NCBI GenBank assembly: GCA_947626075.1
Contig: CANQQW010000009.1
Span: 1 to 42,741 of the forward strand
Direction: 5' to 3'
DNA: 42,741 bases
Source: an uncultured Clostridia bacterium
Lineage (GTDB): Bacteria > Bacillota > Clostridia > UBA1381
In this document: piece by piece, positions 26,348 to 42,515 of the stretch
Numbering within the stretch: the stretch's first letter is position 1
Layout of the letters: the number at the start of each line of letters is the position of its first letter
Position numbers and translations under genes: made by a program
The notes under the pieces: model-generated
Seen by the model: the letters and a program-made list of their open reading frames with translations, nothing else
What the model was told of the DNA's origin: nothing
The model's database searches: none

Positions 26348-26815
26348 CTAAGTTACTTTTCTTTCCTCGTCCCAAGGGAGGACGTCGCCGTCCTCGCGGA
26401 GATAGTCTATTATCTGCCATACTCCCTCGCCCGTTTTTGAGTCCACCCGAAAAACCGTTTCGCAGCCGGCAAGACGCAGCCACCTTTCCGCCCTGTCCGC
26501 GTCGGCGTTTTTATTGTTTATCTGCGTCACTATACCTATAACCGGTCTGTTGCACACCGGCGTTACGCACGGCGGATACAGCGAATACGGCTCGCACGCG
26601 CTTATTAAAAGCCCGACAATATCCGACTCGAACGTATACATCGCGAGCGCGTTGCCGAGGTTTTTGGTCTGTATGTATTCTCCGGGGGTATCTGTGATAA
26701 CGTCAAAACGATTCACATACTGCGTTTTGTGATAATGAATCTTCTCGCCCTTAAGCGCCTGCGTGAGCGTCGTTTTCCCGCACTCGCTCCGTCCGACAAG
26801 AATTATCTTTCTCAT
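26348..26815 (-). CDS. eutP: EutP/PduV-type small GTPase-like protein
   Basis: This 155-residue P-loop protein is of the EutP/PduV family, normally encoded in ethanolamine or propanediol microcompartment operons. The P-loop GRSECGKTTL (8-17) and the Tyr/Thr-rich switch HYHKTQYV are typical. TDTPGEYIQTKNLGNAL holds the DTPGEY motif that marks EutP. The TQINNK segment takes the place of the G4 motif (NKxD), so nucleotide specificity may be relaxed. Some EutP members act as acetate kinases; that activity cannot be judged here. It overlaps eutS by ATGA. No other Eut or Pdu gene is in the window. Confidence 0.9.
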   Translation of the reverse strand: MRKIILVGRSECGKTTLTQALKGEKIHYHKTQYVNRFDVITDTPGEYIQTKNLGNALAMYTFESDIVGLLISACEPYSLYPPCVTPVCNRPVIGIVTQINNKNADADRAERWLRLAGCETVFRVDSKTGEGVWQIIDYLREDGDVLPWDEERKVT

Positions 26816-27189
26816 GTCTTTGTAAGGCCGCAGACCGTAAATTTAAGCGTGTTCTCCGCGTAATTCATAATCGAGCGCAGAGACGTTTCCACGTCCGATA
26901 CCATGCCCGTGATTATAAGCGTGCCGCTGAAACGGTCCACAAAGCTCAAGTCCACATTGGAGGTCTTTGTCGCGATGTCCGCCGCTATAATCGCGGTTTC
27001 GGCGGGGCTCATGGTGAGTATGCCAATCGCGCTGTGTCCGAAGTCTATTTCGGGATTTAAACCGAGCTTTGTATAAAGTATCGGGTCGGGGCTGGCAATA
27101 ACGTGCGAAAGCGTAATCTGCTTGCCCGGAACAAGCTCCTGTATTATCCGCAGCTTATCCTCGGATGATAAAATGTCCTTTAACTCCAC
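26812..27189 (-). CDS. eutS: Bacterial microcompartment shell protein EutS/PduU type
   Basis: This 125-residue permuted BMC-domain protein forms hexameric tiles of microcompartment shells. The EutS signature is clear: IIQELVPGKQITLSHVIASP (about 14-33), followed by YTKLGL, then HSAIGILTMSPAETAIIAADIATKTS in two parts and FVDRFSGTLIITG. It starts with GTG at 27189 and GGAGG 8 nt upstream. A possible extended -10 promoter (TGTTAGAAT on the minus strand, near 27235) lies upstream. It is followed directly by eutP and then an MmcQ/YjbR gene, with no enzyme core genes. A full shell therefore cannot be built from this locus alone. Confidence 0.93.
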   Translation of the reverse strand: MELKDILSSEDKLRIIQELVPGKQITLSHVIASPDPILYTKLGLNPEIDFGHSAIGILTMSPAETAIIAADIATKTSNVDLSFVDRFSGTLIITGMVSDVETSLRSIMNYAENTLKFTVCGLTKT

Positions 27190-31209: not shown

Positions 31210-32526
31210 TTATGATTTTTTCCATTCAAGTATTTTTTCAAGACGCTCTTTAATCGCCTTTTCTTTACCTTGACCGGCAGGTCTGTAATACCGTCTGTGT
31301 ATAAGCGAGTCGGGCAGGCAGTTCATCTTTGCCATTTTTTCCTCGGTATCGTGCGCGTAAACGTAGCCTTTGCCGTAGCCCGCTTCTTTCATAAGCCTTG
31401 TCGGCGCGTTGCGTATCTGCATCGGTACAGGCTCGGCGGGCGCGTTGTTTATGTCGCGCTTAGTCTCTATGTCCGCGACCTCCAAAGCGTTCGACTTCGG
31501 CGCCATAGACAAATACACAACCGCGTGCGCCAAATTTACGCTGCACTCCGGCATACCGATAAAGTGACACGCCTGATACGCCGCGATGGCAATCAGAAGC
31601 GCGTTGCTGTCGGCAAGTCCCACGTCCTCGCTCGCGAAGCGTACCAGACGGCGGGCGATATAAAGCGGGTCCTCGCCGCCGTAAAGCATGCGCTCCATCC
31701 AGTATATCGCCGCGTCGGGGTCGCTGTTGCGCATGGATTTATGCAGCGCGGAAATGATGTTGTAATGCTCCTCTCCGGTCTTGTCGTAAAGAAGCGAGCG
31801 TCGGTTCATACATTGCGCCAATGTCTCATCGTCAATGTCAAGTCCGCCGTCCTCGGTTATCCTGCCGTTAAAAACAGCCATTTCAAGCGTGTTTAGCGCC
31901 GTGCGCGCGTCGCCGTTCGCGAACCGCGCGATAAGCGAAAGCTGCTCGCCGCTTATATGAACATTCATGGAAGCGAAGCCTTTCTCGCTGTTTACGGCGC
32001 GTTCAAGCATTTCCTTTAGGTCGTCCTCCTCGAGCGCCTTAAGTATAAATACCTTGCAGCGTGACAAAAGCGCCGAGTTAAGTTCAAACGACGGGTTTTC
32101 CGTCGTCGCGCCGACGAGTATTATACTGCCCTTTTCGACGTAGGGCAGAAACGCGTCCTGCTGCGCCTTGTTGAAGCGGTGTATTTCGTCCGTAAACAAT
32201 AGCGTGCGTATACCCATTTGGCGCGCGTGTTCGGCGCGGTTCATAATGTCCTTAAGTTCCTTGACGCCGCTCGACGTCGCGCTCACCTCGACGAAATCCG
32301 CTTTTGTTTGCTTTGCTATTATGCGCGCGAGCGTAGTCTTGCCCACGCCCGGCGGTCCCCAAAATATCATAGAGGAAATATTGTCGCTCTCAATCATCTG
32401 ACGGAGTATTTTACCCTTGCCGACAAGATGCTTTTGTCCCACGTACTCGTCAAGCGTCTCGGGACGCAGACGGCTCGCGAGCGGCGCGCCGTGTTCTCTG
32501 TCGTCAAGCATGCTTATCTGTTCCAT
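31210..32526 (-). CDS. rarA: Replication-associated recombination protein A (RarA/MgsA) AAA+ ATPase
   Basis: RarA is a conserved AAA+ protein related to clamp loaders that acts at stalled replication forks. The 438-residue protein has Walker A GPPGVGKTT (57-65), Walker B FTDEIHRF (about 111-118), sensor 1 GATTENPSFELN with its arginine finger region SRCKVF, and the family C-terminal tetramer domain. The last contains RRLVRFASEDVGLAD and the ending VYAHDTEEK...YYRPAGQGKE. The N-terminus has PLASRLRPETLDEYVGQKHL, typical of RarA. GGAGG lies 8-9 nt before the ATG. It begins a four-gene cluster; the gap upstream holds a weak terminator, so its own promoter is not evident. Confidence 0.93.
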   Translation of the reverse strand: MEQISMLDDREHGAPLASRLRPETLDEYVGQKHLVGKGKILRQMIESDNISSMIFWGPPGVGKTTLARIIAKQTKADFVEVSATSSGVKELKDIMNRAEHARQMGIRTLLFTDEIHRFNKAQQDAFLPYVEKGSIILVGATTENPSFELNSALLSRCKVFILKALEEDDLKEMLERAVNSEKGFASMNVHISGEQLSLIARFANGDARTALNTLEMAVFNGRITEDGGLDIDDETLAQCMNRRSLLYDKTGEEHYNIISALHKSMRNSDPDAAIYWMERMLYGGEDPLYIARRLVRFASEDVGLADSNALLIAIAAYQACHFIGMPECSVNLAHAVVYLSMAPKSNALEVADIETKRDINNAPAEPVPMQIRNAPTRLMKEAGYGKGYVYAHDTEEKMAKMNCLPDSLIHRRYYRPAGQGKEKAIKERLEKILEWKKS

Positions 32527-32580: not shown

Positions 32581-33393
32581 TTAGTCCTCCTTAAAGGGAA
32601 ACATATCGCCTAAAATTTCCTTTGCCTTTGTCTTTACCGCGTTGTCGCTTCTGAGCTTAATCGCGCGCGTTTCCTCAAGATTTTCTTCCGGCTCCTCCTC
32701 GTCGAAAACACTCGAATCGGCGTCGCGATTGGGGCGGTAATTTTTTCTGTTTATTTTCTTTACGTCGTCAAGCTCTTCCTCAAGCTCCTCCTTGACCGCC
32801 GACTTTACTTTGGCGCGCTCGTTCCTCGGCTTCGACTGCGCTTCCTCCCAGCGTCTGAAACGTTCTTCTTCCTCGGCGCTCACTTCTCTTAAAAGCGGCT
32901 GTTTTTCAGGGAGCGTAATACCGTCGTCGTCCAAAGCCATAGATTCGTTCATATTGTTGATGTCGACCTCCTGTTCGGCAAAGCCGCCCACGCTTGACAC
33001 AAACTTTTCCTCCACGTCCTTACGCAACGCTCTGATTTCCGCCGAAATATGGTTGTCCTTTTTTGAAAGACGGTAAAATCTGTTTCCTATCCAAAAGCTG
33101 AGCACGGTATTAACGACGGTGATAAAAATGAACCAAAACGCCGCGACGCCCTTTGTGAGGTACTTGCTGTCGGTAACCTCGGCTGTAGAGGCGGTTCCCG
33201 CCGCCGCGGGTATGGACGCGGTTTGATCCTGCGCCGTTTGCTGCATATCCGTCTGCTGCATGTCCGTCTGTTGGGTATCCTGCTGCACAAGGTTGTCGGC
33301 AGGCTCCGGCGTTACAGCCAGCACAAGCGGCGAAGCCGCAAATATCATAAGTCCCGCTGCTATGAGCGCTGCTAATTTTTTCTTAAAATTCAT
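32581..33393 (-). CDS. Signal-peptide single-pass membrane protein, charged tail, partner of GAP1-type protein
   Basis: This 270-residue protein has unknown function. It has a signal peptide (1-26, MNFKKKLAALIAAGLMIF start) and a Gln/Thr-rich linker with tandem QQTDM units (about 41-55). One membrane helix follows (about 82-103, VAAFWFIFITVVNTVLSFWI), then about 165 highly charged residues. Those include an acidic run rich in Glu (EELEEELDDVKK) and KNYRPNRDAD, and are probably cytoplasmic. The topology suggests an outside linker and a large inside tail that could dock a soluble partner. The ATG at 33393 lies only 12 nt after the GAP1-type gene. No known family was recognised. Confidence 0.7.
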   Translation of the reverse strand: MNFKKKLAALIAAGLMIFAASPLVLAVTPEPADNLVQQDTQQTDMQQTDMQQTAQDQTASIPAAAGTASTAEVTDSKYLTKGVAAFWFIFITVVNTVLSFWIGNRFYRLSKKDNHISAEIRALRKDVEEKFVSSVGGFAEQEVDINNMNESMALDDDGITLPEKQPLLREVSAEEEERFRRWEEAQSKPRNERAKVKSAVKEELEEELDDVKKINRKNYRPNRDADSSVFDEEEPEENLEETRAIKLRSDNAVKTKAKEILGDMFPFKED

Positions 33394-33404
33394 CTTTATC
33401 TCTC

Positions 33405-35546
33405 CTATTCAACTACATCTTGAAATGTTTCACGCATTTTTTTCTTTGCGGGTATTCTTGACATTCTCGCCTTGCTCGCGTTGTACACGCGCGTGTACGC
33501 AAGCAGTTTGTCGTCATCCCTTTTACACTTATTATAGCCTATCAAGAACCAGTTCCAAAAGCTCGGCGGAACGGTCTCGGTATTTACCATGATTTCATGG
33601 TAATGACCCGGCGACTCTATGATTTCAAGCGCAAGCTTTGAAATCATGAAATTATAGCATGAGGTCTGCGTCTTACGCATTTCCAAAATCAGCTCCCTGA
33701 CGGTTTTAGCTGTTTTTTCAGCCTCAATCTGGTTCCCGTATGTTCCCTGCCAGCGGTATACCGCGTACAGGAGCCTTGATATGAGAAGCGGCGAATTACT
33801 GTTGCGTATATCGTCCATAACCTCGCCTTTTATGTCGGTGTACTTCCCTCGCTGATACGGAATGTAGCCTACTCTGTTAAGCATACGTTTGATTTTATTA
33901 ATGTCCTGTTCCTGACGGCTGCGCGTTTTCGTATGCTTTGTCATGGATACGCCGTACTTGTCCCATGATTCGTCTTTGTTGTTATAAATATATTTTAAGC
34001 AGCTTTTTTTCAGGAACACGTCGCGCGTTGAAGCGTCGAAATAAGCCACAAGCTCCGCGAGGTCGCCCGTTTCCCAGCCTTCAACCGGCGTAAACGCCGA
34101 AAGTCCGCTGCCTGTTATGACTATCTGAGACGCCATTTTCACAAACAGCTTCAAGTCCTCGGCATTGCCGAAAAGCTCTTTCCACGTGTCCATACCCGAC
34201 GCGTGCTTTATACTGCCCAAGAATACGAGCAGCGATATTTTGTTCTTATCGGTTATATTGTCGTATGACGCGCGGATGGTTTCCATGTATCCGTTAAGGT
34301 TTTCGCACACGGTCTGCGCCTGCTCTTTCGCCGCGTCGCCGCTCTGCGGTTTGATTATTTCAATCGTCTCGCCCGCGCACATTTTTTCAAGGCACTGACC
34401 GATATAAATCTCGGTCACGCTCTTTTTCTCGTTTTCAAACAGCTCGAGATTATCGAACATTATCTTTGACAGCTCGTATTTAACTCCCGCCATATTCAGG
34501 TCGTTTATCGCGGGATATATCTCCAGCACACGAGTTTTAAACGCTTCGCTGCCCGCCGATTTTTTAAGACGTATCAGCTTGCCGGCGATACCGCTCTTTG
34601 TGGTGTTCTCGCAAGTCGCCTCCCAGTCGAGAAGCTGAGACGCGGAGGTGAATTTGTACTTCGCGTAAATTGCGCGCAAATCCTTTACGTCAAAACGCAT
34701 CAGGAGCGATACGGCGTCATGCGGGAATTTGGTGTTTTCCACGTCTATATAAATACAGTTGGGACGCGTTTCCACCGCTTGTTTCGTTATATTGTTTCTT
34801 CCCTTTACCGTGCCGTGGAAAATAATCTGTTTCTGTTTATCGGATGGAAGGTATACGTTATACGTCGATATGCCCGTATTCTGCGCCGCGCCGCGCGGAA
34901 GCAGCCATTTGAGAGACAAAAGGTACATCTGCGTAAGCTCCATGTCGTTCGTAGCGATACATATATTCTTTATATCGCCCGAGGTCAGAAGCAGCATCGC
35001 CTTATCGAGCATATACGTAAGCTCATATTTATGCGACGAGATAAAGTCTATGACCTTATCCTCAAGTCCCTCCGTCGGTTCTATGGAATCAAGCGGCTTC
35101 AAGTAATGCACTATCTGTCCCGCGAGATCTTTCTCGCTGAGGTGAGTGCGGTAAAGCGGATGATTTATATACCGTTCGGGCATGAAATCGTCGTCCACAT
35201 CGTCAAACACAAACGCGTGCGCGAACACGTTCCCCGGCTGACCGTCAAAATCATAGCCGGCGTAGGAAACCTGCATTGCGGCGTATCTGCCGTCCGACAG
35301 TGTGAGCGTCCTGAAAATTTTCGGGAACAGCTCCGGCACGGACGGGTCGCACGGCTTATCGCTGTATTCTATATCGCTGTTCTTGGGCAGACGATATGTG
35401 GCGAAGCGTATAATTTCATCAATATTCTGTTTGGTAAGCCCCTGCGTGCAGGAAAACACGCGCAGTCCCGATCGGTTTGAAAGTCCTATTTCCGGGTCGG
35501 ACAGGCTGTGGGTCACAGAGGTATAGATTAGCTGGTATACCTTCAT
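33405..35546 (-). CDS. GAP1-type (GTPase-associated protein 1) large protein
   Basis: This 713-residue soluble protein of the GAP1-N2/GAP1-M layout is described from GTPase-centred conflict systems. The first 130 residues resemble the N-terminal domain. They contain YTSVTHSLSDPEIGLSNRSG, LKYIRT-like strands and YDFDGQPGNVFAHAFVFDD (about 115-133). Next comes the middle domain (about 150-260, with LLTSGDIKNICIATND and GISTYNVYLPSDK). The remaining 450 residues are helical with no recognised motif. No ATPase or nuclease motif is visible. A poor ribosome binding site (AAAGGA, 13 nt from ATG) precedes it. It sits directly behind an ABC exporter and before a small membrane protein. The GTPases normally found beside such genes are absent here. 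Confidence 0.65.
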   Translation of the reverse strand: MKVYQLIYTSVTHSLSDPEIGLSNRSGLRVFSCTQGLTKQNIDEIIRFATYRLPKNSDIEYSDKPCDPSVPELFPKIFRTLTLSDGRYAAMQVSYAGYDFDGQPGNVFAHAFVFDDVDDDFMPERYINHPLYRTHLSEKDLAGQIVHYLKPLDSIEPTEGLEDKVIDFISSHKYELTYMLDKAMLLLTSGDIKNICIATNDMELTQMYLLSLKWLLPRGAAQNTGISTYNVYLPSDKQKQIIFHGTVKGRNNITKQAVETRPNCIYIDVENTKFPHDAVSLLMRFDVKDLRAIYAKYKFTSASQLLDWEATCENTTKSGIAGKLIRLKKSAGSEAFKTRVLEIYPAINDLNMAGVKYELSKIMFDNLELFENEKKSVTEIYIGQCLEKMCAGETIEIIKPQSGDAAKEQAQTVCENLNGYMETIRASYDNITDKNKISLLVFLGSIKHASGMDTWKELFGNAEDLKLFVKMASQIVITGSGLSAFTPVEGWETGDLAELVAYFDASTRDVFLKKSCLKYIYNNKDESWDKYGVSMTKHTKTRSRQEQDINKIKRMLNRVGYIPYQRGKYTDIKGEVMDDIRNSNSPLLISRLLYAVYRWQGTYGNQIEAEKTAKTVRELILEMRKTQTSCYNFMISKLALEIIESPGHYHEIMVNTETVPPSFWNWFLIGYNKCKRDDDKLLAYTRVYNASKARMSRIPAKKKMRETFQDVVE

Positions 35547-35576: not shown

Positions 35577-37385
35577 TTAGTCAAGCTCTTTAAGACCTGT
35601 ATAAAGCTCGTAATACCGTCCTTTAAGCTTCATAAGCTCCTCATGTGAGCCGCGTTCTATAATCTCGCCGTTTTCCAGTACCATTATCGCGTCCGCGTTT
35701 CTGATAGTCGAAAGCCGGTGAGCTATAACAAAGGTCGTTCTGTTCTCCATAAGAGTGTCCATACCTTTATTGATATCGCGCTCCGTGCGCGTATCGACAG
35801 AGCTTGTCGCCTCGTCGAGAACGAGTATCGGCGCTTTCGACAGCGCCGCGCGCGCGATATTTAGAAGCTGTCTCTGACCCTGCGACAGGTTGGAGCCGTC
35901 GCCTTCGAGCACGGTGTCGTAGCCGTCGGGAAGATGGCGTATGAAGCTGTGCGCGTTTGAGGTGAGCGCCGCCTGGCGCACCTCCGCGTCGGTCGCGTCA
36001 AGTCTGCCATAGCGTATATTATCCATAACCGTGCCGGTAAACAGGTGCGTGTCTTGCAGTACCACGGCGATATTTTCTCTAAGACTGCTGCGGTCTATGT
36101 CGTAAATATCATGTCCGTCTATTGTTATTTTGCCCGAATTTATATCGTAAAATCTTGTTATAAGATTTGTTATCGTGGTTTTACCCGCGCCTGTAGATCC
36201 AACAAGCGCTATCTTCTGACCGGGATGCGCGTATATCGAGACGTTTTTGAGTATCGTCTTGTCGGGGTTATATCCGAAAGTCACGTCATCAACGATAACG
36301 TCGCCTTTTATGTTGCTAAGGACAATATCGCCCTTTTCGCTTTCGGGTTCTCTGTCCATAACGTCAAATACACGTTCCGCACCCGCAAGCGCGGACATTA
36401 CGACCGTAAGCTGCTGAGCAAGCTCGTTAATGGGGCGCGAGAACTGACGCGAAAAGTTTACGAATACCGTAAGACCGCCTATATCAAGCGCGCTGAGCGA
36501 GCCTATTCGTCCAAGTCTGCTCAGTATTACAAGTATCGAGCCTACGCCCGCGGTAAGCGTGTAGTTTACCTGGCTCATCGCGTTCATGCTCGGACCCATC
36601 ATGCCGCCCGCGAACTGCGCCTTTATCTGCGTTTCGCGCAAGGTATTGTTAAGACCGTCAAAGTCGTCCATAACTTTCTGCTCGTGACAGAAAACCTTTA
36701 CGACCTTTTGTCCCGTTACTATTTCCTCTATGTAAGCGTTGACCCTGCCGAGCTCAATCTGTTGATTTACAAATTTCTTTCTTGACCTCGAAGCTATCGT
36801 CGTGCCTATCTTTGCCATTATCGGCGCGATAACAATCGTCACTATACTCAGCCAAAAGTTGGTGTAGAACATCAGCGCAAGTGTACCGATAAGGCTTACC
36901 ACGCCCTGAAATATCTGTACAAGCGTGGAGTTAAGCATTTCGCCTATAGTATCGACGTCGTTCGTGAAGCGGCTCATTATGTCGCCCGTATTGTTGGTAT
37001 CGAAAAAGCGCACGGGGAGCTTTTGAAGCTTTTCAAACAGGTCGCCGCGAATCTTTAAGAGCGCTCTCTGCGATACGCCTATCATAATTCTTGCCTGTAG
37101 GAATGACGCCAAAACGCCCGCCGCGTATATACTCGCCATTTTTACAAGGTTTACGACAAGCACCGAAATTCTTTCCGCCGCGCTCACGTCGGCGACGAGG
37201 TTATTTATAATGGGGCGCAGCATATACGAGCCGGCGAGGTTCGACGCCGCGCTTACCAGTACGCATACGAACGCTATTCCTATTCTGAGCTTATCCTCGT
37301 TCAGATAAGACATAAGGCGTTTAATTGTCGCTTTTGTGTTCTTGGGCTTCCGTGTGTCAGCCCGTCGTGAATTCATCGGAGGCAT
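35577..37385 (-). CDS. ABC exporter half-transporter, catalytically intact subunit
   Basis: This 602-residue type IV ABC half-transporter has a membrane domain of six helices (about 30-330) and a C-terminal ATPase (about 360-600). Walker A is GSTGAGKTT (396-404), the Q-loop is VVLQD and the signature is LSQGQ (500-504). Walker B LVLDEATS has catalytic Glu525, and the switch His is 556 (IAHRLST). The signature deviates from LSGGQ, which matters because it faces the degenerate site of the partner subunit. The first 20 residues are basic. It overlaps the first exporter gene by 1 nt (TAATG) and has GGAGGTGA upstream. Together they form a heterodimeric exporter; the cargo (drug, lipid or peptide) is unknown. 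Confidence 0.92.
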   Translation of the reverse strand: MPPMNSRRADTRKPKNTKATIKRLMSYLNEDKLRIGIAFVCVLVSAASNLAGSYMLRPIINNLVADVSAAERISVLVVNLVKMASIYAAGVLASFLQARIMIGVSQRALLKIRGDLFEKLQKLPVRFFDTNNTGDIMSRFTNDVDTIGEMLNSTLVQIFQGVVSLIGTLALMFYTNFWLSIVTIVIAPIMAKIGTTIASRSRKKFVNQQIELGRVNAYIEEIVTGQKVVKVFCHEQKVMDDFDGLNNTLRETQIKAQFAGGMMGPSMNAMSQVNYTLTAGVGSILVILSRLGRIGSLSALDIGGLTVFVNFSRQFSRPINELAQQLTVVMSALAGAERVFDVMDREPESEKGDIVLSNIKGDVIVDDVTFGYNPDKTILKNVSIYAHPGQKIALVGSTGAGKTTITNLITRFYDINSGKITIDGHDIYDIDRSSLRENIAVVLQDTHLFTGTVMDNIRYGRLDATDAEVRQAALTSNAHSFIRHLPDGYDTVLEGDGSNLSQGQRQLLNIARAALSKAPILVLDEATSSVDTRTERDINKGMDTLMENRTTFVIAHRLSTIRNADAIMVLENGEIIERGSHEELMKLKGRYYELYTGLKELD

Positions 37386-39118
37386 TACGCGGTCACCTCC
37401 TCGTCAACCTGCGAACGGTAAATGTCGCGGTACTCCTCGTTGGTCTGCATAAGCTCGTCATGAGTGCCGAATCCCGTTACGCTGCCCTCGCTCAGGACAA
37501 GGATTTTGTCCGCGTCCGATATGGACGAAATTCTTTGAGCGATTATTATTTTGGTTGTGTCTTTTAAAGTGGTGGCGAAGGCGTGTCTTATCTTCGCCTC
37601 GGTCGCGGTGTCCACCGCGCTTGTGCTGTCGTCGAGTATGAGTATTTTCGGCTTTTTGAGAAGCGCGCGAGCGATACAAAGTCTTTGCTTCTGACCACCC
37701 GACACGTTTACTCCGCCTTGACCCAGCTCCGTGTTGTAGCCGTCGGTAAACGATTTTACAAATCCGTCAGCCTGAGCGTTATCCGCCGCCTGCTCTATTT
37801 CCTCGCGCGACGCGTCCGCGTCGCCCCAGCGGAGGTTATCCTCGATAGTCCCCGAGAAAAGCACGTTCTTTTGCAGTACCATGCCCACGCCGTCGCGCAG
37901 ATGACGTATACTGTAATCCTTTACGTTCACTCCGTCGACAAGCACCTCACCCGCCGTCACGTCGTACAGACGCGGTATGAGCTGCACAAGCGACGTCTTG
38001 CCCGAGCCGGTAGCGCCGATTATGCCTATCGTCTCGCCCGGGTTTATTTTGAAGCTTATATTGTTGAGTATGTTGTCTTTGCGGCTCTCGTAGTACTTGA
38101 AGCATACGTTCCTAAACTCAACCTCGCCTCTCTCAACCGTGAGGTCTTTTCTCGCAGCGTTGTCGTCCGTAAGGTCAACAACGGTGTTAAGCACCTCTTT
38201 AATACGCTTTGATGACGCTGCCGCTCTGGAGCTTTGCAGAAACAGCATCGATACCATCATCAGCGACATGAGTATCTGTACTATGTACGTTGTGAACGCC
38301 GTGAGGTCTCCGACCTCCATACCGCCGCCCACTACGAGATTTCCGCCGTTCCATACGGTCACAATCATGGTTATGTTCATTGCGAGCGTCATGACCGGCA
38401 TCGTGCATATTACTATCTTCATCGCGTTAAGCGTCGCGTCTTTCAAGTCCGCGTTCGCCGCGCGGAATTTGTTAATCTCAAATTTTTCACGGACAAAGGA
38501 TTTTATTACCCTCACGTTGGTGATGTTTTCCTGTATGCCCGAGTTCAGACCGTCCAGCTTGCGCTGTACCGTGTTAAATCTCGGGTATGCGGTATACATA
38601 AGCGTGCCTATGGCGGCGCCCAAAAGCGGAATAACGATAATAAGTATCGCGGCAAGGCTTGTGTTAAGTCTCAGCGCCATAATGATACCGCCTATGAGCA
38701 TTCCCGGTGAACGCATAGCCATGATAAGGAACATACGCGTTATATTCTGTATTTGCGTTATGTCGTTCGTAAGACGCGTTACGAGAGAGCCGGTTGAAAA
38801 AGTGTCTATATTTTTGAAGGAAAAGTCCTGAACTTTTTTGAATACGTCCTTGCGTATGTCGGCGCTGAATGATACAGCCGCCTTAACGGACAGGTAATGT
38901 CCGCCCAAGCCGCCTATTATCATGACGCATATACAGCCGAACATTATTGCCATACGCGATATTACGTAAGCAATGTCGCCGTTTGCAATACCGTCGTCTA
39001 TCATTGTCGCCATAATCGTCGGCAGCACGATCTCTCCCGCTACCTCCGTAAGCATCAGGAGCGGTCCGAATATAAAACATAGGATATGTGATTTTATGTA
39101 TTTCATGTATTGTTTCAA
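37385..39118 (-). CDS. ABC exporter half-transporter, subunit with degenerate ATPase residues
   Basis: This 577-residue half-transporter has six membrane helices (about 10-300) and a C-terminal ATPase (about 335-577). Walker A GATGSGKTS (368-376) and signature VSGGQ (472-476) are normal. After Walker B, the catalytic Glu is replaced by Asp497 (LILDDSTSA), and the switch His is Gln528 (IAQRISS). Those replacements mark the non-catalytic half of heterodimeric exporters such as TM287/288 or BmrCD. The start is TTG at 39118, with AGGAGG 6 nt upstream; the first ATG four codons later is too far. It follows pyrG by 48 nt and overlaps its partner gene. Confidence 0.9.
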   Translation of the reverse strand: MKQYMKYIKSHILCFIFGPLLMLTEVAGEIVLPTIMATMIDDGIANGDIAYVISRMAIMFGCICVMIIGGLGGHYLSVKAAVSFSADIRKDVFKKVQDFSFKNIDTFSTGSLVTRLTNDITQIQNITRMFLIMAMRSPGMLIGGIIMALRLNTSLAAILIIVIPLLGAAIGTLMYTAYPRFNTVQRKLDGLNSGIQENITNVRVIKSFVREKFEINKFRAANADLKDATLNAMKIVICTMPVMTLAMNITMIVTVWNGGNLVVGGGMEVGDLTAFTTYIVQILMSLMMVSMLFLQSSRAAASSKRIKEVLNTVVDLTDDNAARKDLTVERGEVEFRNVCFKYYESRKDNILNNISFKINPGETIGIIGATGSGKTSLVQLIPRLYDVTAGEVLVDGVNVKDYSIRHLRDGVGMVLQKNVLFSGTIEDNLRWGDADASREEIEQAADNAQADGFVKSFTDGYNTELGQGGVNVSGGQKQRLCIARALLKKPKILILDDSTSAVDTATEAKIRHAFATTLKDTTKIIIAQRISSISDADKILVLSEGSVTGFGTHDELMQTNEEYRDIYRSQVDEEVTA

Positions 39119-39166: not shown

Positions 39167-40795
<1,629 letters not shown>

Positions 40796-41974
40796 TTACT
40801 CCCCTCTGTGTCTTGTGACAAAACGCTCTATCCTTTTTAAAGCTTCCTGTATATTTTCTATCGAATACGCATACGAGCAGCGTATAAAGCCCTCGCCGCT
40901 TTCGCCAAAGGCGTTGCCCGGTACTACCGCGACGTGTTCCTCCTCCAAAAGCTTCCCACAAAATTCTTCCGACGTCATGCCCGTTGATTTAATGCATGGG
41001 AACACGTAGAACGCGCCCAAAGGCTCGAAGCAGCTTAGTCCCATCGCGCGGAAGCCGTCCACGATATAACGGCGGCGGTAGTTGTACTCGCGGCGCATTT
41101 CCTCAACGTCGTTATCGCAGCTTTGAAGCGCCTCGATTGCCGCGTACTGCGCCGTTGTCGGCGCGGACATTATGCCGTACTGGTGGATTTTACGCATAAG
41201 GCTTATCAGTTCCGCGGGACCCAGCGCGTAGCCAAGCCGCCAGCCCGTCATCGCGAACGCCTTTGAAAAACCGTTTACAACAACTGTTCTCTCGCGCATA
41301 CCGTCTAATTTTGAGAACGGAATATGCCCTTCCTCGCTGTAGCGAAGCTCGCCGTAAATCTCGTCCGACAGTACCATTATATCAGTACCGCGAAGCACTT
41401 CGGCTATCGCCTCCAAATCCTTGCCCGACATTACTCCGCCGGTCGGATTGTTGGGGTACGGAAGTATTAAAAGCTTCGTCTTGTCCGTGATTTTTTCCTT
41501 AAGCTGCGACGGTAAAAGACGGAACTCGTCCTCCTCCTTTGTTTCAATCGGTACGGGTACGCCGCCCGCCATGATTGTAAGCGGCTTGTAGCATACGAAG
41601 CACGGCTCGGGTATAAGCACCTCGTCGCCGGGGTTTACAAGCGTACGTATCATGAGGTCGATCGCCTCGCTGCCGCCCACCGTCACAAGCACTTCGGTTT
41701 TTGGGTCGTACTTTACGCCGAATTTTCTTTCATTGTAATTACATATCGCCTCGCGCAGTTCCATGAGACCGGAATTGGCGGTGTAGTGCGTCTGTCCCTT
41801 TTCGAGCGAGTAAATACCCGCTTCGCGTATAGACCACGGCGTGGTGAAGTCGGGTTCTCCCACACCCAGGGAAATCGCGTCTTTCATTTCAGCCGCTATA
41901 TCAAAAAACTTTCTTATCCCCGACGGCGGCAGCGCCGACACGACGGGAGAAACGATTTTACTGTAATCTATCAT
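40796..41974 (-). CDS. PLP-dependent class I/II aminotransferase
   Basis: This 392-residue fold-type I aminotransferase catalyses amino-group exchange between an amino acid and a 2-oxo acid. The PLP Lys238 lies in NGFSKAFAMTGWRLGY (234-249). The substrate-binding motifs ISLGVGEPDFTTP and PYPNNPTGGVM, and the Asp of SDEIYGELRY, are intact. The sequence is closest to the aspartate/aromatic aminotransferase (PatA-like) group, and the exact substrate cannot be read from sequence. The ATG overlaps the upstream regulator gene (ATGA), and an Lrp-type regulator paired with an aminotransferase is a common arrangement. It is followed 3 nt later by pyrG. Confidence 0.92.
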   Translation of the reverse strand: MIDYSKIVSPVVSALPPSGIRKFFDIAAEMKDAISLGVGEPDFTTPWSIREAGIYSLEKGQTHYTANSGLMELREAICNYNERKFGVKYDPKTEVLVTVGGSEAIDLMIRTLVNPGDEVLIPEPCFVCYKPLTIMAGGVPVPIETKEEDEFRLLPSQLKEKITDKTKLLILPYPNNPTGGVMSGKDLEAIAEVLRGTDIMVLSDEIYGELRYSEEGHIPFSKLDGMRERTVVVNGFSKAFAMTGWRLGYALGPAELISLMRKIHQYGIMSAPTTAQYAAIEALQSCDNDVEEMRREYNYRRRYIVDGFRAMGLSCFEPLGAFYVFPCIKSTGMTSEEFCGKLLEEEHVAVVPGNAFGESGEGFIRCSYAYSIENIQEALKRIERFVTRHRGE

Positions 41975-42453
41975 AACGTAATCACCTGTCTTGTATCCTT
42001 TTCGTCGTCCTCGAATACAATTCCTTCCTCCTTGTATTTTTTCAGCACGAAGTGCGTCGCCGTTGATATTATAGAGTCCATAGGGGCGAGCTTCTGCGCC
42101 ACGAACAGCGCTACCTCTTTCATGCTCTTGCCCTCAATCGTAACGGCGAGGTCGTACGCCCCCGACATGAGGTAAAGCGACTTGACCTGCGGGTACTTGT
42201 AAATCCTTTCGGCTACCTTGTCAAAGCCTTCTCCGCGCTGGGGCGTTATACGAAGTTCTATGAGCGCCGTTACAACGTCGCGGTCTGTTTTATCCCAGTT
42301 TATAATGGTCTTATAACCGACGATTACGTTCTCTTTTTCGAGTTTTTTGATGCTTTCGGCGACTTCTTTTTCGTCCGCGCCGAGCATTTGCGCGATTTTA
42401 GCGCGTGAAACGCTGTTTTTTTCCTTATCTAAAATATTTAATATTTCTTTCAT
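41971..42453 (-). CDS. Lrp/AsnC family transcriptional regulator
   Basis: This 160-residue amino-acid-responsive regulator has a winged helix-turn-helix (about 5-50, with SRAKIAQMLGADEKEVAESI) and a RAM/AsnC ligand domain (about 65-140). The latter includes IELRITPQRGEGFDKVAERI and LYLMSGAYDLAVTIEG. The typical GxxDLA motif is seen as GAYDLAV. I chose the ATG at 42453: GGTGA lies about 10 nt upstream, and related proteins begin with KEILNIL. An ATG three codons upstream is too close to the site. It overlaps the aminotransferase gene and is likely its regulator. The upstream promoter has an extended -10 element. Confidence 0.88.
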   Translation of the reverse strand: MKEILNILDKEKNSVSRAKIAQMLGADEKEVAESIKKLEKENVIVGYKTIINWDKTDRDVVTALIELRITPQRGEGFDKVAERIYKYPQVKSLYLMSGAYDLAVTIEGKSMKEVALFVAQKLAPMDSIISTATHFVLKKYKEEGIVFEDDEKDTRQVITL

Positions 42454-42515
42454 AACCGTCATATCACCTTTCCAAAGCATACAAATATGCACATTAATAG
42501 TCATTTTATCTTATA

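Follow-up and report, generated by a model that had tools for sequence, protein, structure and literature searches.

The window analysed here, a 42,741-nt stretch from an uncultured Clostridia bacterium (contig CANQQW010000009.1), carries on its minus strand a run of genes in the order Lrp/AsnC regulator, aminotransferase, pyrG, two ABC half-transporters, a 713-residue GAP1 protein, a membrane protein that we call TMP, and rarA (Table 1). The two exporter genes directly upstream of GAP1 share one base at 37385, in line with the overlap reported in a preliminary description of this DNA, and end 30 nt ahead of the GAP1 gene. That description had also placed a one-helix membrane protein with a large charged tail just behind GAP1; we confirmed this open reading frame, with 11 nt separating the GAP1 stop from the TMP ATG. 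The GAP1 stop codon, TAG, falls within the Shine-Dalgarno sequence of TMP (TAGGAGAG), and ribosome-binding sites are present for GAP1, TMP and both exporter genes. An Rfam scan of the window gave no match. Elsewhere in the window (26348-27189, minus strand), a putative small GTPase resembling EutP/PduV adjoins a small, apparently shell-like protein, giving this spot the look of a microcompartment, and in several congeners it remains nearby, at a distance of a few genes.

Table 1: Genes and protein segments of the locus, in window coordinates.
Feature	Position	Strand	Basis or remark
Lrp/AsnC-type regulator	41971..42504	-	Conserved neighbour upstream
Class I/II aminotransferase	40796..41974	-	Conserved neighbour upstream
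pyrG (CTP synthase)	39167..40792	-	Conserved neighbour upstream
ABC exporter subunit 1 (ABC1)	37385..39118	-	Degenerate Walker B DD and AQR H-loop
ABC exporter subunit 2 (ABC2)	35577..37385	-	Canonical Walker B DE, degenerate signature LSQGQ
713-aa GAP1-N2 protein (window-type GAP1)	33405..35546	-	PF20013 match
GAP1-N2 domain, residues 4-137	35136..35537	-	Pfam match
Possible diverged GAP1-M region, residues 150-290	34677..35099	-	Only within whole-protein hhalign alignment of residues 1-323
Family-private, almost all-helical C-terminal region, residues 324-713	33408..34577	-	No classic GAP1 match
GAP1 residues 533-538, sole strand of the helical half, proposed TMP docking edge	33933..33950	-	Inferred from L086 model
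270-aa membrane partner (TMP)	32581..33393	-	Next gene past GAP1
TMP signal peptide, residues 1-26, near-invariant A26	33316..33393	-	Relatives' alignment
TMP extracytoplasmic T/Q/A-rich linker, variable	33145..33315	-	Relatives' alignment; missing in L083 and L086
TMP transmembrane helix, about residues 84-106	33076..33144	-	Hydropathy; helix in model
TMP segment E140-x6-N147-x-N149 (invariant)	32947..32976	-	Proposed GAP1-pairing strand; model strand 780-785
TMP C-terminal motif VKxKAKEILGDIFPF	32584..32643	-	(Nearly) invariant in all relatives; not placed in model
rarA/mgsA	31210..32526	-	Downstream neighbour only in most of genus

In Pfam, the 713-residue protein matched GAP1-N2 (PF20013) with an E-value of 2.2e-14; its score of 54.1 bits is well over the cut-off, which is 24. 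The protein had earlier been called GAP1-N2/M-like, and while the first half of that label holds above the Pfam cut-off, the second is weaker, since Pfam GAP1-M gave no match even at E<=1. Alignment of the whole protein by hhalign to a classic GAP1 profile, built from eight sequences of the same class, extended over residues 1-323 with a probability of 98.6, and the GAP1-M region as an isolated profile reached 1.8, which is not significant. GAP1-M itself scored over the cut-off in three of the five classic GAP1 proteins scanned. As the M region does not reach significance by itself, we take 'GAP1-M-like' as a fair guess for the residues past the N2 domain, and not as a finding.

The remainder of the protein, residues 324-713, does not align with classic GAP1, and classic Clostridia GAP1 proteins are likewise without a Pfam GAP1-C match. 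No relatives of this region were found outside the family in 391 genomes of the class. It is helical, with a pLDDT of about 90, in the model of a relative. Searches of Pfam, NCBIfam, PADLOC and PHROGs with the 713-residue protein revealed no further family besides GAP1-N2, and no credible sequence relatives of either GAP1 or TMP were seen in the PDB.

Published systems define GAP1 by an adjacent DO-GTPase (Kaur et al., 2020, PMC7159879). No DO-GTPase2 (PF19993) was found in the window's genome (G000), and across 41 genomes this profile gave two matches, that in G011 scoring over the cut-off and that in G018 under it. Since the Pfam DO-GTPase2 model is insensitive to tubulin-theme GTPases, we added a search with an alignment of three such proteins (A3), which detected G011 only and nothing in G000. 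These searches covered 37-41 genomes; a DO-GTPase1 (PF19975) search, run without a positive control, was excluded as evidence. At the loci themselves, no adjacent or fused DO-GTPase gene was present in any of the 41, the neighbours being pyrG, ABC1, ABC2, TMP, rarA or unrelated genes, and Pfam identified no FNIII, tubulin, vWA, HSP70 or kinase companions among the immediate neighbours.

The GTPases noted as missing from the window are thus missing genome-wide, and the suggestion of a 'reduced' variant stands as far as their loss is concerned, but not for the protein itself, which includes about 390 helical residues private to the family. Given the GAP1-N2 homology, the locus could still belong to an ordinary DO-GTPase/GAP1 system whose GTPase is encoded elsewhere or was missed, and the window's genome assembly is 92.6% complete, so that such a gene could be missing from it. 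The absence of DO-GTPases would be weak from this one genome alone, but it is not weak across the genus, in which all 16 genomes carry window-type GAP1; among the 37-41 genomes searched, DO-GTPases were confined to G011, apart from the match below the cut-off in G018. We consider an ordinary system improbable, and it is already largely refuted.

Genome G011 carries both kinds of locus. Its contig C80 (L042) encodes a window-type GAP1 together with TMP, rarA and the exporter, and contig C6 (L055) a system of classic appearance, made up of an 882-aa GAP1, a DO-GTPase and tubulin-like genes. The L055 system resembles the window locus in coming from the same genus and in its 882-aa protein, which is GAP1-N2-like (E 0.006, below the cut-off), but differs from it in having the DO-GTPase and tubulin-like genes, and it co-exists with a window-type GAP1. 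As one genome holds both, window-type GAP1 forms a lineage of its own and is neither a remnant nor a decayed copy.

Several other gene sets were noted during these searches. The DO-GTPase of L055 (7270-17497, G011:C6) bears a zinc ribbon, and both the GAP1-N2 and the DO-GTPase of that locus fall under the Pfam cut-offs. In L178 (8756-15712, G011:C8), a DO-GTPase2 gene and the gene of a 930-aa protein kinase-NACHT protein lie near each other; no GAP1 gene was recognised in the interval, and this set is possibly another conflict system. A GAP1-N2/DO-GTPase run was also seen in L171 (1-18368, G373:C159), just ahead of an apparent S10 ribosomal protein operon.

Of 95 genomes of the order searched with an 18-row GAP1 alignment, 48 contain a full-length orthologue, and all 48 belong to one Clostridia family. 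GAP1-N2 was also present in 27/61 genomes of the relatives search, and a draw of 391 genomes from the class added just two N-terminal GAP1 matches outside the family. A scan of named genomes yielded 41 GAP1 loci, nearly all from uncultured Clostridia of animal guts, including Candidatus Ornithomonoglobus; carriers are nearly all metagenome-assembled gut Clostridia, and the one that looks like an isolate is MD329 (L060). When TMP was searched for independently, 47 of the 48 GAP1 genomes proved to have it, the one without it (G077) having an incomplete GAP1 match; the 47 GAP1-less genomes lacked TMP, bar one borderline match (E 1e-3) with two stop codons. TMP was the next gene in 39/39 named loci where the contig continues. 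The pairing of GAP1 with TMP is obligate. The outcomes that the preliminary description had named as refuting it, absence of a GAP1 match or homologues that do not co-occur with the membrane protein, are clearly not what was observed.

Pairwise distances of GAP1, TMP, ABC1, ABC2 and pyrG correlate across 33 loci (Spearman 0.62-0.88). Since these distances rise together, the block has been inherited vertically and is not a mobile module. GAP1 and TMP are single-copy genes in a fixed position without mobile or defence neighbours; PADLOC returned no defence-system match and PHROGs no phage-family match, and no phage or plasmid relatives were found. The pair is neither a chance nor a mobile assembly, and the earlier reading of the locus as a GTPase-centred conflict or stress module finds no support. 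The base of the family in the pyrG tree was not resolved as to loss versus never having gained the genes.

We then analysed the membrane partner. The N-terminal hydrophobic stretch of TMP spans residues 6-29, with A26 of the cleavage type, and its cytoplasmic tail comprises 164 residues, of which 31 are K/R and 43 D/E. In 19 relatives, a cleavable signal peptide is followed by an S/T/Q/P-rich linker of very variable length and one transmembrane helix, and the cytoplasmic side consists of a conserved juxtamembrane helix, the invariant E-x6-N-x-N, a disordered charged stretch, and a terminal invariant motif of the KxKAKxxLxDIFPF type. The TMPs of L086 and L083 have lost the signal peptide and ectodomain but kept the transmembrane segment, strand and tail. 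Because the signal peptide and linker are dispensable in these two, the conserved job of TMP would lie on the cytoplasmic side. The two shortened homologues map to 10149-10601 in L086 and 3608-4018 in L083, the latter having no clear start codon ahead of the transmembrane segment.

No fitting family for TMP was found in Pfam, NCBIfam, PHROG or PDB. Published accounts of GAP1-N2 systems include SLATT 2TM effectors and partners rich in TM segments (PMC7159879), and TMP shows a sub-threshold likeness to Saf_2TM (E 0.011; 16 bits, where the cut-off is 29.5), both of which would suit a reduced conflict system in which TMP is a membrane-damaging effector, as predicted for SLATT/Saf_2TM, restrained by GAP1. 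However, TMP does not belong to SLATT/Saf_2TM, as it matches no family and has one transmembrane segment, not two, once its signal peptide is cleaved. Its conservation resides in the cytoplasmic motifs and not in the transmembrane segment, and the vertical inheritance, single copy and fixed position of the gene, along with the empty PADLOC, phage and plasmid searches, also argue against an effector. We think this explanation unlikely, and a stress or defence role of GAP1-TMP is unsupported.

To model the two proteins together we used L086, where the GAP1 and TMP genes lie in the same frame, and joined them as one 867-residue chain, putting Gly in place of the GAP1 stop TAA and a linker of four codons behind it; this is a modelling device and implies no read-through. 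The alignment contained three more in-frame pairs as well as unpaired GAP1 and TMP rows. The resulting single-chain AlphaFold2 model had a mean pLDDT of 83.2 and a pTM of 0.67, with GAP1 mostly near 90, and the C-terminal motif of TMP was not placed (pLDDT 43-48). Residues 780-785 (SLTVVN), within the invariant E-x6-N-x-N of TMP, formed a strand with a pLDDT of about 80. According to DSSP, the only strand of at least three residues in the helical half of GAP1 is the six-residue strand 532-537, which maps to residues 533-538 of the window protein. Strands assigned by DSSP must pair and no other strand residue occurs after 537, which in this model places the partner of the TMP strand in GAP1; strand 532-537, equal in length, would be the likeliest one. 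Covariation across 36 GAP1/TMP pairs (effective number 28) gave scattered top pairs, none concentrated at the proposed contact. The pairing of the conserved TMP strand with GAP1 in this one model makes the earlier proposal that the membrane protein anchors GAP1 plausible, and TMP as the anchor is the role we favour; of the earlier reading, this part has the best support.

Heterodimeric ABC exporters with one degenerate nucleotide site include those of the TM287/288 and BmrCD type. The upstream gene pair encodes an exporter of this kind, with two half-transporters and one degenerate site: ABC1 has a DD Walker B and an AQR H-loop, and ABC2 a DE Walker B, an AHR H-loop and an LSQGQ signature. ABC2 was found upstream of GAP1 in 37 of 38 named loci, including L079, where an additional spacer of about 0.9 kb separates the two. 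The exception is L083, in which GAP1-TMP is kept and the 1.4 kb upstream is unrelated sequence without an exporter. The exporter pair is absent from the pyrG locus of the four GAP1-less genomes of the family in which this locus could be read (G016, G023, G019 and G031). Genome-wide, the best full-length relatives of ABC2 reach <=45% identity in GAP1-less genomes, versus 66-73% in GAP1 genomes, and the best matches of the GAP1-less genomes group in paralogue clades in the tree. In one genome, G026, an end fragment of a true ABC2 orthologue persists (its clade has 99/99 support); GAP1 is absent, and a TIR-domain gene comes next. On this contig (L180, 1-1589; G026:C189) the fragment lies at the contig edge, and the TIR-domain protein stands where relatives have GAP1.

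Because of L083 and G026, the link of GAP1-TMP to the exporter looks strong but not absolute. The same two loci would fit a GAP1-TMP unit that does something else at the membrane, with the exporter as a mere operon neighbour, as would the pace of substitution relative to pyrG, which is about 3x for GAP1 and about 4x for TMP, and only 1.8x for the exporter. The near-constant presence of the exporter upstream, and its disappearance from the pyrG locus of the four GAP1-less genomes of the same family, speak against this explanation, which we regard as possible but rather doubtful. A link between the GAP1-TMP module and the exporter is probable. Of the suggestion that the locus is a stress module tied to the exporter, then, the tie is retained and the stress role is not.

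Weighing these results, we give roughly even chances to window-type GAP1 being a domesticated, GTPase-free GAP1-N2 derivative that is tethered to the membrane by TMP and works with the exporter. GAP1 and TMP would form one membrane-tethered module, in which TMP is a single-pass protein whose N-terminus leads during export. Its cytoplasmic helix and E-x6-N-x-N strand would hold GAP1 at the membrane by strand addition, as seen in the one model, leaving the invariant tail motif (KAKEILGDIFPF) free to contact something else, for which the ABC exporter of the adjoining genes is the simplest candidate. We infer that the module may adjust the activity or placement of the exporter. The constant company of TMP and, in nearly every locus, the exporter, with no GTPase, points to a part of a predicted defence system put to new use. 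A more specific version, in which one bacterial family took over a GAP1 from a conflict system to serve as the cytoplasmic part of a two-protein exporter accessory, with the TMP strand docking on it and the FPF tail on the exporter, is offered only tentatively.

GAP1-N2 proteins are so far known only from computed systems, where they are defined by their GTPase, and the papers found give no experimental data on any of them. If window-type GAP1 is indeed a recruited exporter accessory, it would represent a GTPase-independent use of the GAP1 fold. The retention of the N-terminal domain in a near-core gene of one lineage, without such a GTPase, shows that the GAP1-N2 domain has a use of its own. 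The private C-terminal region of GAP1 and the tail motif of TMP constitute new sequence families, and an always-paired two-gene unit with clear motifs makes the binding partner of GAP1 testable.

Compared with known systems, ABC1 and ABC2 show the same motif pattern as TM287/288 and BmrCD-type exporters, for which we know of no GAP1/TMP-like accessory pair. The GAP1-N2-type DO-GTPase systems share with the window locus the N-terminal GAP1-N2 domain, the alignability of residues 1-323 to classic GAP1, a membrane theme and occurrence in Bacillota. Since the defining GTPase is absent, we have not filed the window locus among the DO-GTPase/GAP1 systems. Unlike them, it has no DO-GTPase, tubulin, vWA, HSP70 or FNIII gene adjoining, and it combines a private helical C-terminal region with a fixed chromosomal locus and a constant partner, whereas the partner in those systems is variable.
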